A stretch of DNA of 64,000 nt from an uncultured Anaerolineae bacterium. GTDB taxonomy: Bacteria > Chloroflexota > Anaerolineae > CG2-30-64-16. The notes beneath the pieces were generated by a model. That model searched no databases. It saw nothing but the letters and a program-made list of their open reading frames with translations, and was not told the origin of the DNA. Positions 43,784-52,211 of this stretch are shown here, piece after piece; positions within the stretch are counted from its first letter, which is position 1, and each line of letters starts with the position of its first letter. A program made the position numbers and the translations under genes. Location of the stretch: contig CAKZKT010000006.1 of assembly GCA_937124585.1 (NCBI GenBank), forward strand, positions 1 through 64,000, written 5' to 3'.

Positions 43784-43887
43784 TGGCCATCGAGGCCGCC
43801 CTGCCCCGCAAATCACCGCACCAATCACGAAAAGGAAGACCGCCTACTTTCAGTCTCTCCGATTATTGATATTTTACACATGAGAAT

Positions 43888-43916
43888 TTGACTAAAATCA
43901 CCAAGCACGATATGAT
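43888..43916 (+). promoter_or_regulatory. Promoter of the suf operon
   Basis: TTGACT, a 17 base spacer and TATGAT: five of six matches in each box. It sits in an AT-rich island within GC-rich DNA. Transcription should begin near 43923, at the left edge of the operator-like repeat, giving a leader of about 78 bases before the regulator gene. Confidence 0.75.
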
Positions 43917-43923
43917 TTCGTCC

Positions 43924-43949
43924 GTTGTCGAGCGCAGAGCGCCGACAAC
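43924..43949. promoter_or_regulatory. Candidate SufR operator
   Basis: A perfect inverted repeat GTTGTCG-N12-CGACAAC lying directly at the predicted transcription start of the regulator gene. Cyanobacterial SufR is known to bind CAAC-N6-GTTG sites; the same four-base words occur here in the opposite order and with wider spacing. Position over the start point fits autorepression. The call is inference from symmetry and place. Confidence 0.55.
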
Positions 43950-44000: not shown

Positions 44001-44654
44001 ATGATCGCCAAACAGCTGAACAGCAGTCCGGCCGGAGAATTGCTCACGATCCTCCAACGCCGAGGCGCCTCGACCATCAAGGAGCTAGAGGATGCCCTGG
44101 GCGTGACCGCTACCGCGGTACGCCAGCAGATCGCCAGCCTGATGGCCGACGGCTACATCGAGGCGCAGGTCGAGCGTGCCGGCCGCGGCCGGCCGCGCCA
44201 TGTATACTCCTTGACGCCCAAAGGCCGCGCGCTCTTCCCGCGCCACTACGACGAGTTCACGAACACACTGTTGCGGGAGATCCTGGTGAGCGAAGGCCCG
44301 GAGAAGGTACAGGCGTTGCTGGGCCGCTTGAGCCGGCGCATGGCCGAGCAGTACGAGCACCAGTTGAGCGGCCTGCCGCCGAGCGAGCGCGCGGCCAGAT
44401 TGTCGGAACTGCTCAACGCGAAGGGCATTCTGACCGAAATCAAATTCGAGCCGGATGCGATCTTCGTTCACGAGTACACCTGCCCATACTACGAACTGGC
44501 GCTGGAGAATCGGGCGATCTGCGACATGGAAGAAGAAATGCTGGCCCATGCGGTCCAACAGCCGGTGGAGCTGGTGAAATGCACGCTGGACGGGCACCAC
44601 GGGTGCCAGTTCAGGATCGAGACGAACGCTTCGTCATCATCGAAGCCAAACTGA
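44001..44654 (+). CDS. sufR: SufR-type iron-sulfur cluster repressor
   Basis: A 217-residue regulator with an N-terminal winged helix (about 8-70: LTILQRRGASTIKELEDALGVTATAVRQQIASLMADG and the wing VERAGRGRPRHVYSLT) and a C-terminal sensory region holding four Cys at 161, 174, 194 and 202 (C-x12-C-x19-C-x7-C). This matches SufR, which holds an Fe-S cluster and represses the suf operon while clusters are plentiful. The ATG at 44001 follows GAAGGAC. It is the first gene of the locus, 18 bases before sufC, and has a candidate operator at its own promoter, so autoregulation is likely. Confidence 0.88.
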   Translation: MIAKQLNSSPAGELLTILQRRGASTIKELEDALGVTATAVRQQIASLMADGYIEAQVERAGRGRPRHVYSLTPKGRALFPRHYDEFTNTLLREILVSEGPEKVQALLGRLSRRMAEQYEHQLSGLPPSERAARLSELLNAKGILTEIKFEPDAIFVHEYTCPYYELALENRAICDMEEEMLAHAVQQPVELVKCTLDGHHGCQFRIETNASSSSKPN

Positions 44655-44672: not shown

Positions 44673-45506
44673 ATGCCTGCTGAGCTAGTGATCAAAGACC
44701 TGCACGTTTCCGTCGAGGGCAAAGCCATCCTGCGGGGAGTCAATCTGACCGTGCGCCAGGGCGAAGTACATGCGCTGATGGGGCCGAACGGCTCGGGCAA
44801 AAGCACCCTGGCCTACACGATTGCCGGCCACCCGCACTATGAAGTTACCGGCGGCGATATTTTATTGAACGGCGAGAGCATCCTGTCGCTGGCGCCCGAT
44901 GAGCGCGCCAAAGCCGGCCTCTTTCTGGCCTTCCAGTATCCGACCGCCATTCCGGGCGTCAGCATGGCGAACTTCCTGCGCCAGGCAGTGAGCGCCGTGC
45001 GCGGCTACACCGACAAAGCCAAGCAGGCCGTAGCTGAAGGCGGCAGCGTCAAGCCGATCGGCTCCGAGCTGATGCCAATGCGCGAATTCCGCCGCGAACT
45101 GACCGAAAAGATGGAAAAGCTGCACATTGACCCGGCCTTCGCCCGACGCTACCTGAACGACGGCTTCTCCGGCGGCGAGAAAAAGCGCGCCGAGATCCTG
45201 CAAATGGCGATGCTGGAGCCGAAGATCGCGGTGCTCGACGAGACCGACTCGGGCCTGGACATTGATGCGCTACGCGTCGTCGCCGAGGGCGTCAACAGCC
45301 TGCTCGGCCCCAACCTGGGCGTGCTGCTCATCACCCACTACCAGCGGCTGCTGAACTACATCAAGCCGGACTTCGTGCACGTCTTCTACAATGGCCAGAT
45401 CGTCCAGTCGGGCGGGCCCGACCTGGCGCTTGAGCTGGAGGCGAAGGGCTACAGCTGGGTGCGCGAGCTGTTCGGCGAGCCGATGCCAGGGCAAGAGATG
45501 GCGTGA
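44673..45506 (+). CDS. sufC: Fe-S cluster assembly ATPase SufC
   Basis: The ABC-type ATPase of the SufBCD scaffold complex, which drives cluster assembly in the cytoplasm. At 277 residues it is slightly longer than typical SufC (about 250). Walker A is GPNGSGKST (37-45), the signature is [12 protein letters not shown] and Walker B with the D-loop is [16 protein letters not shown], the exact SufC form. A GAGGAG ribosome site precedes the ATG. It lies between sufR and sufB in the standard order for actinobacteria-, cyanobacteria- and Chloroflexota-type suf operons. Confidence 0.96.
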
Positions 45507-45540: not shown

Positions 45541-46959
45541 ATGCCTGCAACTGACACCGATCGCCAGGCGCTTGCCGAGGTCAAGAGCGAATACAAATAC
45601 GGCTGGAGCCAGCCGGAGAACTACGTCTTCAAGGCGCGCAAGGGGCTGGATCACGAGATCATTGATCAGATCAGCGTGATGAAGGGAGAGCCGGAGTGGA
45701 TGCGCAAGCTGCGCCACGACGCGCTCGACATCTTCTTTTCGAAGCCCATTCCCACCTGGGGCGCCGACCTGAGTGGCATTGACTATCAGGACATCTACTA
45801 CTACATCAAGCCGGTGGAGACGCAGGGCCGCAGCTGGGAAGACCTGCCGGCGGACATCAAGGAGACGTTCGACCGGTTGGGCATCCCCGAGGCTGAACGC
45901 AAATTCCTCGCCGGCGCGGGCGCGCAATACGAGAGCGAGGCCGTGTATCACTCCTTGAAACAGGAGTGGGAGCGCCAGGGCGTCATCTTCGTAGACAGCG
46001 ACACCGGCCTGCGCGAATATCCGGAGATCTACAAAGAATTCTTCGGCACCGTGGTGCCTGCCACCGACAACGTCTTCGCGGCCCTGAACACGGCCGCCTG
46101 GTCGGGCGGTTCGTTCGTCTACGTGCCGAAGGGCGTCCATCTCGACATTCCGTTGCAAGCCTACTTCCGCATCAACGCGCAGAGCATGGGCCAGTTCGAG
46201 CGCACCCTCATCATCGTGGATGAAGGCGCCAGCGTGCACTATGTCGAAGGCTGCACCGCGCCGGTCTACTCCACCGATTCGCTGCACAGCGGCGTCATCG
46301 AGATCATCGTGCGCAAGAACGCGCGCTGCCGCTACACGACCATCCAGAACTGGTCCACCAATGTGTACAACCTGGTGACACAGCGCGCGCTGGTGTACGA
46401 GGGCGGCACCATGGAATGGGTGGATGCCAATCTGGGCTCGAAGGTCACCATGAAATACCCGTCGGTCTACATGCTCGGCCCCAACGCGCGCGGCCAGATC
46501 CTCTCGATGGCGTTCGCCGGGCCGGGCCAGCATCTGGACACCGGCGGCAAGCTGGTCCACGCGGCGCCGAACACGTCGAGCCAGCTCATCTCCAAGTCCA
46601 TCAGCAAAGGTGGCGGCCGCGCCTCCTATCGCGGCCTGTTGAAAGTGAGCAAAGGCGCGCATGGGGCCAGGTCGAACGTCGTCTGCGACGCGCTGCTCCT
46701 GGACGAACGGAGCCGCTCCGACACCTATCCGTACATCGAAATTGACGAGGACGATGTCACGGTCGGCCACGAAGCATCGGTCAGCAAGATCGGCGAAGAA
46801 CAGCTCTTCTACCTGATGAGCCGTGGTCTCTCCGAAGACGAGGCCAGCGCCATGATCGTCTCTGGCTTCATCGAGCCGATGGTGAAGGAGCTGCCCATGG
46901 AATACGCCGTCGAAATGAACCGCCTGATCCAACTCCAGATGGAGGGGTCTATTGGGTGA
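45541..46959 (+). CDS. sufB: Fe-S cluster assembly scaffold SufB
   Basis: The 472-residue scaffold subunit on which clusters form together with SufD and SufC. The N-terminal region ([21 protein letters not shown]) and the core [30 protein letters not shown] are diagnostic. The Cys equivalent to the essential one of E. coli SufB is C382 in [44 protein letters not shown] is the conserved C-terminal core. The ATG follows GATAGGAG. It is separated from sufD by a GTAGACAAGG palindrome, an unusual insertion within an otherwise tight operon. Confidence 0.96.
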
Positions 46960-47069: not shown

Positions 47070-48359
47070 ATGACAGTTCAAATCCTGACAACACCGGTAG
47101 CGGTGCTCGCCGATAAAAAAGACGAACCTGCGTGGATGCTCGATCTGCGCACCAGGGCCTGGCGTTTCTTCGAGGAAATTCCCTGGCCCACCGGCACCGA
47201 GGAGACCTGGCGTCGCACCAAGCTGACCGGCTTCCATTTGGAGGATTACACGCCGCTGGCCGGCGACAACCCATCGGCCGGCCTGCACGAAGAGACGGCC
47301 AAAGCGCTCGCCGAGGTGGAAAGTATCGGCAGCCTGGCCATCGAAGATGGCGTCGCCCGCGTTCGCGAACTCGACCCGGCGCTCAGCCGTCGCGGCGTGA
47401 TCCTCTGCGCCCTGGATGCCGCAGTACGAGAACACCCCGATCTGGTGCAAAAGTACTTCGGCAGCGTCGTCGCAGTTGACGAGAACAAATTCAGCGCGCT
47501 GAACTACGCCCTGTGGAACAGTGGCACGTTCGTCTACGTGCCGCGCAACGTGATCGTAGACAAACCGCTTCAGGTCGTGATCCGTCAAAGCACAGGCAGA
47601 TCGGCCGGCTATCACCACACCATCGTCGTCGCCGAAGAGGGTGCGGCAGTCACCCTGGTCGAGGATTTCCTGGGCGCCGATGAGGGCATGACCGACAGCA
47701 CCGTCGAATTGATCGCCGGCCCCAACAGCCAGCTGCACTACCTGCATCTGCAAAACCTGGCGACCACGGCCTGGAACTTCGGCACCCAGCGCATGCGCCT
47801 GGAGCGCGACGCCACCCTGCGCCATTTCATCGGCTCGTGGGGCAGCCGACTGAGCAAGAACTGGATCAACATGGAGCTGGTAGGCCAGGGGAGCACCGGT
47901 GAACTGCTCGGGCTCTACTTCCCCAGCGGCCGGCAGCACCTCGATCACCACACCAACCAGCTGCACAAGGCGCCGCACGCGACCAGCGACCTGCTCTTCA
48001 AAGGCGCGCTGAAAGACCGGGCGCGCGCCGTCTACCAGGGCTACATCAAGGTATATTCCGGCGCGCAGAAGACCAACGCCTATCAGGCGAACCGCAACCT
48101 AATGCTGAGCAAGCAGGCCCGCGCCGACAGCATCCCGGGCCTGGAGATCGAAGCCGACGACGTGCGCTGCACGCATGGCGCCACCGCCGGCCAGATCCCC
48201 GACGAATACATCTTCTACCTGATGGCGCGCGGCATAGATCGCACCAACGCCGAGCGCATGATCGTGCAGGGCTTCTTCGAGGAGGTGTTGAACCGCATCC
48301 CGGTCGAGGGCGTGCGCAACAAACTCGAGACGGAGATCGCGCGCAAATTGGGGCTGTGA
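47070..48359 (+). CDS. sufD: Fe-S cluster assembly protein SufD
   Basis: The 429-residue partner of SufB in the SufBC2D complex, where it forms the heterodimer interface and takes part in iron entry. It has the shared core [31 protein letters not shown] and the C-terminal region [33 protein letters not shown]; the His matching the important His of E. coli SufD is H369. The start follows AACGGAGATC. It is transcribed with sufB despite the palindrome between them and is followed after 43 bases by a rhodanese gene. Confidence 0.95.
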
Positions 48360-48402: not shown

Positions 48403-49257
48403 GTGACCGACAAAGGTTATGTTCATTCCGAAAAAGTAGTGACCACGGCCTGGGTAGCTGAGCATCTTACCGATCCAGGCGTGCGCATCGTCGAATCGAA
48501 TGAAGATGTCCTGCTCTACGAGCGCGGACACATTCCGGGCGCAGTGCACATTGACTGGGTGGCCGACCTGAACGACCCGATCACCCGTGACTACCTCAAC
48601 CGGGAGCAGTTCGAGCGGTTGATGGCGCGCCATGGCATCGCCAACGATACCTTCATCGTATTCTACGGCGACAAAAACAACTGGTGGGCATGTTACGCCC
48701 TGTGGGTCTTTGAACTGTTCGGCCACACCAAAACGGCCATCATGGACGGCGGCCGGCTGAAATGGGAGCAGGAAGGCCGCCCCATGACGCGCGATGTGCC
48801 ATCCTATCCGCCGACAACGTATGCGGCGCAGGATCGCGCCGACTACAAGATCCGGGCCTTCCGGGACGATGTGTTGGCCCACATCCGCGCCGGGCGACCT
48901 CTGGTGGATGTGCGCAGCCCGGGCGAGTATACCGGCAAGCTCTACCACATGGAGGGCTACCCGCAGGAAGGCGCGTTGCGCGCCGGCCACATCAAAGGCG
49001 CAGTCAACGTGCCGTGGGCGCGAGCAGCCAACCCGAACGATGGCACCTTCAAGACGGCCGAGGAACTCCGCGCCATCTACGAGAGCGAACAAGGACTGAG
49101 GCCCAGCGACAGCGTCATCGCCTACTGCCGCATCGGCGAACGGTCGAGCCACACCTGGTTTGTGCTCAAATACCTGCTCGGCTACCCCAACGTCCGCAAC
49201 TACGACGGCAGCTGGACGGAATGGGGCAACCTGGTCGGCGTGCCGATCGAACGCTGA
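48403..49257 (+). CDS. Thiosulfate/mercaptopyruvate sulfurtransferase
   Basis: A tandem-rhodanese sulfurtransferase of 284 residues. The inactive first domain covers about 1-140 ([26 protein letters not shown]), and the active second domain has the persulfide Cys242 in [14 protein letters not shown]. Such enzymes move sulfane sulfur from thiosulfate or 3-mercaptopyruvate to acceptors. Its place inside the suf locus suggests it supplies or recycles persulfide sulfur for cluster assembly, which is inference. The start is a GTG at 48403 with a strong AGGAGGAC site. It is the last gene before the second suf promoter. Confidence 0.9.
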
Positions 49258-49400: not shown

Positions 49401-49781
49401 GTGGATCGCCAAGCGAAGATTGACTTCATCCTGGATCATTACGAGAACCCGCGGCATCACGGGCCGCTGGCTGATGCCACTGTGGTACAAAAAGGCGGCA
49501 ATCCCGGCTGCGGCGACGTCATCACATTCTATCTGAAGATCACTGACGGTCGGATCAACGATATCGGATTCGAGGGCGATGGCTGCACCATCAGCATGGC
49601 CGCCGCTTCCATGGTGGCCGAGATGTTTGTTGGTAAAACCCTGGCCGAGGTCGAAGCCACCTCACCCGATGTTATCCTCGACCTGCTGGGTCGCGAGATC
49701 GCCGGCACGCGACTGAAATGTGCGCTGTTGGGGCTGAACACGACCAAAGAAGCAGTGCGTCAGTTGCGTCCGACAACGTGA
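49401..49781 (+). CDS. sufU: Fe-S scaffold / sulfur acceptor, IscU/SufU type (copy 1)
   Basis: A 126-residue U-type protein. The three ligand Cys and the Asp are C37-x-D39 (NPGCGDVITF), C62 (GDGCTIS) and C107 (LKCALLGL). It lacks the LPPVK chaperone motif of IscU. In SufU-containing bacteria this protein receives sulfur from SufS at a zinc site. The start is a GTG with GGAG about 10 bases upstream. It differs clearly from the second copy at 51196, and only one copy is usual beside sufS. It lies under its own promoter, before sufS. Confidence 0.88.
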   Translation: MDRQAKIDFILDHYENPRHHGPLADATVVQKGGNPGCGDVITFYLKITDGRINDIGFEGDGCTISMAAASMVAEMFVGKTLAEVEATSPDVILDLLGREIAGTRLKCALLGLNTTKEAVRQLRPTT

Positions 49782-49876: not shown

Positions 49877-51145
49877 GTGTCTACACCAACCAGGACCCAA
49901 TCCACCGAACAGCGGCCTCCTGCGCTCAATGTCGAAGCAATTCGGGCCGACTTTCCGATTCTCCAGCGCCGCGTCCACGGCCTGCCGCTCGTCTATCTGG
50001 ACAACGCGGCCACCTCGCAAAAGCCGCGCAGCGTGCTCGACGCGCTGACGCGCTACTACGAGCAGACCAATGCCAACGTCCATCGCGGGGTGCACACGCT
50101 GAGCGAGGAGGCAACCGCCCAATACGAGGCCGCGCGCGCCAAAGTCGCCAGCTTCATCGGCTCCTGTTGCCCGAAAGAGATCATCTGGACGCGCAACGCC
50201 AGCGAGGCAATGAACCTGTTGGCCCAGAGTTGGGGCCGCGCCAACCTGAGGCGCGGGGACCGCGTCCTGCTCACCGAGATGGAGCACCACTCGAACATCG
50301 TGCCGTGGCAGATCCTCTCCGCCGAGCTGGGCTTCGAGATCGCCTACCTGCGTGTTGCCGACGACGGCACACTGATCCTGGACGACTTGCCCCGACTGCT
50401 CGATGGCCGCACAAAGCTGTTCAGCTTCACCTACATGTCGAACGTCCTCGGCACGATCAATCCGGTGGTCGAGTTGACGCGTGCCGCGCACCGGGCCGGC
50501 GCGCTGGTGCACCTGGATGCCTGCCAGGCGGTGCCGCACATGCCCGTGAACGTGACCGAACTGGACATAGATTTCATGTCCTTTTCCGGCCACAAAATGC
50601 TCGGCCCGACCGGCATCGGCGCGCTGTGGGGCCGCCGCGAGCTGTTGAATGTCATGCCGCCATGGATGGGCGGCGGCGATATGATCCGCGAGGTGCATCT
50701 GAGCGGCTTCAAACCCAGCGAACTGCCGTGGAAGTTCGAAGCCGGCACGCCCGCCATCGCGCAGGCCATCGGCCTCGGCGCGGCGGTGGACTATCTGGAA
50801 CGGACCGGCATGGCCGCCATTCATCAGGCCGAACGCGAGCTCATCGCCTACGCGATGGAGCGCCTGGCCACGGTGGAAGGCTTGCGCATCCTGGGCCCGG
50901 CGGCCGATCAACGCGGGGGCCTGGTCAGCTTCGTGTTGGGCGATATCCACCCGCACGACATCGCAGCCGTGCTGGACAACCTGGGCATCGCCATTCGCGC
51001 CGGCCACCATTGCGCGCAGCCGCTGCACGAACGCTATCGCATCCCGGCCAGTGCGCGCGCCAGCTTCTACCTGTACAACACACGTGAAGAGGTGGACTTG
51101 CTGGTGAAGGCGCTCCACAAAGTAGTGGAAATATTCAATTTCTGA
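49877..51145 (+). CDS. sufS: Cysteine desulfurase SufS
   Basis: A 422-residue group II cysteine desulfurase that takes sulfur from cysteine as an enzyme persulfide. PLP binds K240 in SFSGHKMLGPTG, and the active Cys379 lies in the short loop RAGHHCAQPLH. The N-terminus (AIRADFPILQRRVHGLPLVYLDNAATSQKP) is the standard SufS opening. The start is GTG at 49877 after AAAGAGGTG. Downstream by 50 bases is the second scaffold gene. With SufU it feeds sulfur to SufBCD. Confidence 0.95.
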   Translation: MSTPTRTQSTEQRPPALNVEAIRADFPILQRRVHGLPLVYLDNAATSQKPRSVLDALTRYYEQTNANVHRGVHTLSEEATAQYEAARAKVASFIGSCCPKEIIWTRNASEAMNLLAQSWGRANLRRGDRVLLTEMEHHSNIVPWQILSAELGFEIAYLRVADDGTLILDDLPRLLDGRTKLFSFTYMSNVLGTINPVVELTRAAHRAGALVHLDACQAVPHMPVNVTELDIDFMSFSGHKMLGPTGIGALWGRRELLNVMPPWMGGGDMIREVHLSGFKPSELPWKFEAGTPAIAQAIGLGAAVDYLERTGMAAIHQAERELIAYAMERLATVEGLRILGPAADQRGGLVSFVLGDIHPHDIAAVLDNLGIAIRAGHHCAQPLHERYRIPASARASFYLYNTREEVDLLVKALHKVVEIFNF

Positions 51146-51195
51146 TGCGCGTCTGACCAGATGTGACGGTCAGCGCACGACAAAGGGCTATCATC

Positions 51196-51573
51196 ATGGA
51201 TTTGTACGCCGAAGAGATCCTTGATCACTACAAACATCCGCGCCATTTCGGGCATCTCGATCACCCGACGGTCACCTTTCACGATCGCAACCCGCTCTGC
51301 GGCGACGAGATCACGCTGGAGCTGCAGATCGTGGACGACAAGGTGGCCGATGTTGCCTTCACCGGTCACGGCTGCGCCATCAGCCGCGCCGCCGCCTCGA
51401 TGATGTCCGAGGAGATCATCGGCAAGTCGCTGGATGAGCTGAAGCGCTGGAACAAAGACAACATCCTGGATCTGCTCGGCATCGAAGTCGGCCCGGTGCG
51501 CATCAAATGCGCGCTGTTGCCGCTGAAGGCGCTCAAAGCCGCGGTCTGGGGCATGGGAGAGGAAGATGAGTAG
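51196..51573 (+). CDS. sufU: Fe-S scaffold / sulfur acceptor, SufU type (copy 2)
   Basis: A 125-residue U-type protein, paralogue of the one at 49401. Ligands are C35-x-D37 (NPLCGDEITL), C60 (GHGCAIS) and C105 (IKCALLPL). It starts MDLYAEEILDHYKHPRHFG, which is the commonest SufU opening, so this copy is the better candidate for the standard SufS partner. The ATG at 51196 is preferred over a GTG at 51163 because AAAGGG precedes it and the family begins there. Its last eight bases overlap the Rieske gene, so the two are coupled. Confidence 0.9.
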   Translation: MDLYAEEILDHYKHPRHFGHLDHPTVTFHDRNPLCGDEITLELQIVDDKVADVAFTGHGCAISRAAASMMSEEIIGKSLDELKRWNKDNILDLLGIEVGPVRIKCALLPLKALKAAVWGMGEEDE

Positions 51574-51877
51574 GTTCGTCAAAGTCGCCCGCGTGGATGA
51601 GATCCCGCCCAACAGCAAGAAGATCGTCGAAGTGGACGGCGTCGAGATCGTCGTGGTCAACGTGGACGGTGCCTTCTACGCCCTCGAGGACGTCTGCACG
51701 CACGACGGCGGCCCGCTCGGCGAGGGCAGACTGGAAGGCTGCCAGTTGATCTGCCCGCGGCACGGCGCTCGCTTCGATGTGCGCACCGGCGCGGCCCTCA
51801 CCATGCCGGCGGTCGAGCCGGCGCCCACCTACGCCGTGCGCATCCAGGGCAACGACGTCCTGGTGGAATCATATTGA
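51566..51877 (+). CDS. Rieske-type ferredoxin
   Basis: A small soluble [2Fe-2S] Rieske protein of 103 residues. The cluster ligands are C44-x-H46 (DVCTHDG) and C63-x2-H66 (LICPRHGARFDV), the full Rieske pattern, with no membrane anchor or fused oxygenase domain. Similar proteins act as NirD subunits or as ferredoxins for dioxygenases. Here it overlaps sufU and is followed by sufT, so an electron-transfer or cluster-carrier role in Fe-S assembly is likely but inferred. Rieske proteins recur in suf operons of Actinobacteria and Chloroflexota. Confidence 0.9.
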   Translation: MSRFVKVARVDEIPPNSKKIVEVDGVEIVVVNVDGAFYALEDVCTHDGGPLGEGRLEGCQLICPRHGARFDVRTGAALTMPAVEPAPTYAVRIQGNDVLVESY

Positions 51878-51896: not shown

Positions 51897-52211
51897 ATGG
51901 CCGTTGCAACTGTCGAAGGTGTGCGCGAAGTCATTCGCCAAAACGTCCACGACCCGGAGATCGGGCTCAACATCGTAGACCTGGGCCTCGTCTATAACAT
52001 TGACATCAAGGATGGGAAGGTTGTAGATATCGAGATGACGCTCACCAGCCCCGGCTGCCCGGTCGGCCCGCAGATCATCCGCGGCGTCCAGACCTATGTC
52101 AACCGGGCGTATCCTGATCTGGAGGCCATCAACATCCATATCGTCTGGTCGCCGCTCTGGAACCCCGATATGATGAGCCAGGCTGCCAAGGATCAGCTTG
52201 GCTTCTTCTGA
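51897..52211 (+). CDS. sufT: MIP18/DUF59 family Fe-S assembly protein SufT
   Basis: A 104-residue single-domain DUF59 protein. Motifs are HDPEIGLNIVDLGLVYNIDI and MTLTSPGCPVGPQI, with the conserved Asp and Cys. SufT-type proteins help mature Fe-S enzymes when demand is high. The ATG at 51897 has GAGGAG upstream, 19 bases after the Rieske stop. It is the last recognised Fe-S gene of the locus; the DUF72 gene follows after 15 bases in the same direction and may be co-transcribed. Confidence 0.9.
   Translation: MAVATVEGVREVIRQNVHDPEIGLNIVDLGLVYNIDIKDGKVVDIEMTLTSPGCPVGPQIIRGVQTYVNRAYPDLEAINIHIVWSPLWNPDMMSQAAKDQLGFF

Follow-up and report, generated by a model that had tools for sequence, protein, structure and literature searches.

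Where does the regulator SufR bind ahead of its own gene in the Anaerolineae? The question is raised by a 64,000-nucleotide stretch of an uncultured Anaerolineae bacterium (contig CAKZKT010000006.1, assembly GCA_937124585.1; hereafter the window), in which a sufR gene heads a suf operon. The original prediction for this DNA, made from the letters without database searches, saw a near-consensus promoter, TTGACT-17-TATGAT, and close behind it a perfect inverted repeat, GTTGTCG-N12-CGACAAC, at 43924-43949, which it took for the SufR operator and possibly a distinct operator type in this lineage. Both elements are present where it placed them, and we examined which sequence is the better candidate for the binding site. 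The evidence points to a 28-base-pair (bp) dyad at 43871-43898, probably the operator of the SufR encoded downstream, which would cover the −35 box and repress its own operon. This reading draws on the dyad's conservation, symmetry and position, the gene order, and the cysteine pattern of the regulator.

A conserved dyad over the −35 box

In the window the dyad reads ATTTTACACA-TGAGAATT-TGACTAAAAT. Eight of its 10 arm positions are symmetric, its right half contains the −35 box, and sufR starts 102 bases downstream. The window genome was compared with nine others of its family, eight of which carry sufR (63-77% identical), seven of them with readable upstream DNA; no sufR was found in G005, which is 70% complete. 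The family upstreams align on a common block, ATTTTACACAT-N4-ATTTGACTAAAA, with CACA and TTG invariant across the seven aligned rows. Pattern searches covered whole genomes: across the ten family genomes, whose listed sizes sum to about 48 Mb, exact TTWACACA-N6-TTTG has seven occurrences, every one before sufR (G000, G002, G004, G006, G007, G008 and G009). G003 carries it with one mismatch, likewise at sufR, and the dyad is kept in eight of the nine family genomes that have the gene. At one locus (L018, G002:C315) the candidate operator is intact but sufR lacks its start, possibly through an assembly error: residue 24 is the first one matched, with no open ATG start before it.

Because the dyad was first seen within the family, tests were run on other families. 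A weight matrix built on sufR upstreams of other families (20 in all, 18 from the class and 2 from Tectomicrobia) and scored over the window gives the 43871 site 31.1 bits, against 3.2 for the next unrelated site, and the left half alone, which contains no promoter box, still takes top rank (12.9). Since these 20 sites had been chosen by a pattern written after the family sites were seen, a de novo motif search was added, using 56 sufR upstreams outside the family. The resulting motif (log-likelihood 786, versus 90 for shuffled sequence) scores the window dyad at 28.4 bits and the next unrelated window site at 10.8, and a site scoring >16 is present in 53 of the 56 upstreams. Dyads of the same kind, in the same place, occur across the class and in Tectomicrobia.

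The position of the dyad varies between families. Among 65 loci, the best dyad is centred 3.5 bases ahead of the −35 box in 12 (the window family and some others) and 12.5 bases ahead of it in 20, from many families; the remaining loci are scattered, in part because the dyad or the −35 box was picked wrongly by the automatic procedure. Half-sites at the shifted loci are alike (for example, AATTTTCACA...TGTGTAAATT or TTTTCACTA...TAGTGAAAA), and the 9-bp shift approximates one helical turn, suggesting a single operator type that has moved along the promoter between families. Two further arrangements were seen: two tandem operator-like dyads 182 and 112 bases ahead of one sufR (L049), and, at L091-L093, a longer and almost perfect dyad, GCCAAAACTGATTTAGACAGTTTTGGC, whose centre lies 22 bases ahead of the −35 box and which overlaps the usual site at its left half.

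Several observations weigh against the dyad as the SufR operator. One family genome, G001, has no site within the 112 bases between sufR and the contig end, and 3 of the 56 class upstreams lack one by the de novo motif. Many of the 56 are closely related to one another and amount to fewer independent witnesses than that number. Arm symmetry is imperfect (8 of 10 positions in the window, 5-8 in relatives), and in many families the dyad centre lies about 9 bp further upstream. The right half doubles as the −35 box, so that part of the conservation is promoter conservation; the promoter likewise adds to the matrix and motif scores, although the left-half result is independent of it.

With at most two mismatches allowed, the dyad pattern occurs at 43 places in the genome, compared with 27 for a reversed control, and we claim no wider regulon. 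The one exact match, at C147:71006 (L100), was rejected as a further operator, as it overlaps a transporter-ATPase gene at its end and seems fortuitous.

The regulator and its operon

The gene behind the promoter had been described as encoding a winged-helix protein with four C-terminal cysteines, and it does: PF13601 matches the N-terminal part at 39.4 bits (cut-off 27), and cysteines stand at 161, 174, 194 and 202. The C-X12-C-X27-C pattern is kept across SufR of the family and class. Compared with the published SufR set, C-X12-C-X13-C-X14-C (PMC8593673), the first spacing is identical and one cysteine is positioned differently. Identification as a SufR-type regulator is borne out by the TIGR02702 match and by the position of the gene ahead of the suf operon. 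Because that match, at 87.9 bits, falls short of the equivalog cut-off of 178.8 bits, which is reached in 0 of 151 genomes of the phylum, the protein is a SufR relative that stands outside the cyanobacterial equivalog. Unlike the Rrf2-type Fe-S regulators IscR and RisR, it has no Rrf2 domain detectable with Pfam or NCBIfam. We found no solved SufR structure, and structural matches were limited to weak ones of the ArsR/MarR type.

In a phylogenetic tree, SufR of the window, the class and Tectomicrobia forms one clade (support 100/99). SufR paralogues of about 24-31% identity occur without the dyad motif and without suf context. At four loci (L126, L127, L131 and L132) a SufR-like gene of another clade has an upstream dyad of its own, GTTTTTACAGA-N4-TCTGCACAAAC, and no sufC or sufB was found beside it within the available stretch.

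The promoter, found by consensus scan at 43888-43916, is above chance for its region (one found, 0.1 expected). Transcription would start at about 43923-43925. The leader from the −10 box to the sufR ATG is 84 bases long in the window and shorter in aligned relatives. Downstream, the order sufR-sufC-sufB(-sufD) gives sufR its suf context and is kept in the family and class. Within the operon, sufS is flanked on both sides by sufU, both copies scoring above the SufU family cut-off. A short open reading frame at about 51897-52211, an apparent member of the operon, has a SufT-like appearance, as judged by eye only.

Features of the sufR-suf region, in window positions
Feature	Position	Strand	Basis or remark
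Candidate SufR operator, 28-bp dyad ATTTTACACA-N8-TGACTAAAAT	43871..43898	+	overlaps −35 box
−35 box TTGACT	43888..43893	+	consensus scan; kept in relatives
−10 box TATGAT, 17-base spacer	43911..43916	+	consensus scan; GTGATAnnAT kept in relatives
Flagged inverted repeat GTTGTCG-N12-CGACAAC (GTTGTCGAGCGCAGAGCGCCGACAAC), hairpin in 5' leader	43924..43949	+	seen in this genome only
sufR	44001..44654	+	TIGR02702 87.9 bits, below cut-off; Pfam winged helix; C161-X12-C174-X27-C202 plus C194
sufC	44673..45506	+	TIGR01978 above cut-off
sufB	45541..46959	+	TIGR01980 above cut-off
sufD	47070..48359	+	TIGR01981 above cut-off
Rhodanese-like sulfurtransferase gene	48403..49257	+	PRK11493 122 bits, below cut-off
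sufU copy 1	49401..49781	+	TIGR01994 above cut-off
sufS	49877..51145	+	TIGR01979 above cut-off
sufU copy 2	51163..51573	+	TIGR01994 above cut-off
Rieske-type ferredoxin gene	51566-51877		after second sufU; apparent part of suf operon

How might the dyad act? A SufR dimer carrying [4Fe-4S] clusters would bind one half-site at ATTTTANNCA and the other at its mirror image, across 8 intervening bases. The bound regulator would cover the −35 box and block RNA polymerase, so that sufR and the downstream sufCBD-sufU-sufS-sufU genes would be kept low; when clusters are scarce or damaged, SufR would be released and the operon expressed. Judging from the place of the dyad over the −35 box and from what is published on how SufR behaves, repression by blocking RNA polymerase is the likeliest mechanism.

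Other readings of the promoter region

The 4.83 Mb genome has a single copy of the flagged repeat. As a type of feature it is ordinary and not above chance: perfect repeats with arms of 7 bp or more and spacers of 3-20 number 154 in the 64 kb window, a density of about one per 416 bases, and first-order random sequence yields 108-132. Conservation upstream of sufR had been set beforehand as its check, and neither the repeat nor a similar one stands at the same place in any of the seven same-family relatives with readable upstream DNA. It sits within a stretch of leader that the window genome has in addition to what aligned relatives have. Folded, it forms 7 bp, a bulged A, 4 bp and an AGA loop (−15.5 kcal/mol), a good hairpin but not a rare one, as equally good folds are reached by 112 of the 7996 32-base stretches sampled from the window. 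A repeated or mobile element was ruled out, given that the 83-base leader occurs once in the genome, as were a known RNA family (Rfam gave no match up to E 1) and a terminator (the scan shows no terminator-like site at the hairpin).

Could the repeat instead act as RNA, beside the upstream operator? The expected transcription start would put the hairpin right at the 5' terminus of the messenger RNA (mRNA), where it might stabilise the message or tune translation in this species; its fold is among the strongest 1.4% of 32-base stretches in the window, and the leader is longer than those of relatives. Yet the hairpin is neither conserved nor matched in Rfam, the fold z-score of the leader is just −1.85, and the genus is represented here by one genome, which gives no view of covariation. 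We consider such an RNA role unlikely, if conceivable. The repeat is probably a lineage-specific 5'-leader hairpin that lies outside the SufR switch, with an effect on the mRNA being possible.

Less probable still is that the conserved block serves as an A/T-rich UP element or is bound by a different regulator, with SufR binding elsewhere or not at all. The block is indeed A/T-rich, lies directly upstream of the −35 position and includes the −35 box. However, all aligned family rows share CACA, the ten family genomes have the exact pattern at sufR and nowhere else, the block has dyad symmetry, and the dyad accompanies sufR into Tectomicrobia. Similar half-sites about 9 bp further upstream in other families are also something that an UP element would not need.

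That SufR binds the flagged repeat, at the transcription start, and exerts its repression from that place is very improbable: although the repeat is a perfect 7-bp dyad in a plausible operator position, has a single genome copy and includes the words CAAC and GTTG in reversed order, none of the seven family members that retain sufR and the promoter has it, repeats of its size are common in the window, and its half-site order and spacing are unlike those of the published SufR sites compared. The repeat's designation as operator is therefore not upheld by the conservation check. The accompanying idea of a distinct operator type in this lineage fares better and is likely correct, given a sequence unlike CAAC-N6-GTTG, with its place moved from the flagged repeat to the dyad at 43871-43898.

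Two kinds of SufR in one phylum

The published SufR operator is CAAC-N6-GTTG (PMC8593673, PMC13421787; for Streptomyces avermitilis, PMC11995493). Neither the window sufR nor any other sufR of its clade has an exact copy upstream. In another family of the same phylum, a separate SufR clade (L121 and L136-L141; 23-27% identity) has the exact sequence upstream of sufR at 7 of 7 loci. The tree included five proteins of this clade, whose recognition helix reads SKQAALRHLEAL, versus TATAVRQQIASL in the window SufR. The order sufR-sufC-sufB is alike in the two clades, as seen at L121; the stretches of the other six loci are too short to show sufC and sufB. Separate clades, differing recognition helices and CAAC-N6-GTTG in one clade only therefore mean that the phylum has two kinds of SufR with two candidate operators. 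Judging from these comparisons, the SufR subfamily of the class and Tectomicrobia probably has an operator of its own, the 28-bp dyad AATTT-N3-CA-N8-TG-N3-AAATT, read by a changed recognition helix and moved by about one helical turn relative to the −35 box between families, whereas the separate clade of the same phylum keeps CAAC-N6-GTTG.

The window system shares with cyanobacterial SufR (PMC8593673, PMC13421787) the winged helix, C-terminal cysteines for a [4Fe-4S] cluster, suf neighbours and an inverted repeat, here the putative operator, in the promoter region. It differs in its TIGR02702 score below the cut-off, its 28-bp dyad with a CA-N8-TG core, and its other recognition helix. The CAAC-N6-GTTG sites of the phylum itself are also flanked by T-rich and then A-rich sequence. 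SufR of S. avermitilis and Corynebacterium (PMC11995493) and Rv1460 of M. tuberculosis (PMC6034842) head a co-directional suf operon and repress it from a site in their own promoter, an arrangement that the window sufR appears to share. In S. avermitilis, CAAC-N6-GTTG covers the −10 box and the start, whereas the window site lies over the −35 box and has a different sequence. The M. tuberculosis SufR site is said to read ACACT-N5-TGTGA. RisR of Myxococcus xanthus (PMC9973013) is likewise an Fe-S regulator heading a suf operon, with a palindrome that has A/T-rich flanks, but it belongs to the Rrf2 family and has an imperfect TTGGAC-N7-GTCC-type palindrome as its site.

A 2021 review (PMC8593673) limits its mention of SufR to Cyanobacteria and two Actinobacteria, and the literature searched here gave no relevant paper on SufR in Chloroflexi. 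From its sequence and distribution, the dyad looks like a previously undescribed type of SufR binding site in these bacteria. The locus also illustrates that the most conspicuous repeat near a promoter is not necessarily the operator. Should the reading proposed here be true, searches with CAAC-N6-GTTG would overlook SufR control in much of the phylum, and the new dyad would detect it. Two SufR clades with different helices and operators in one phylum would then be a natural set for studying how SufR reads DNA.
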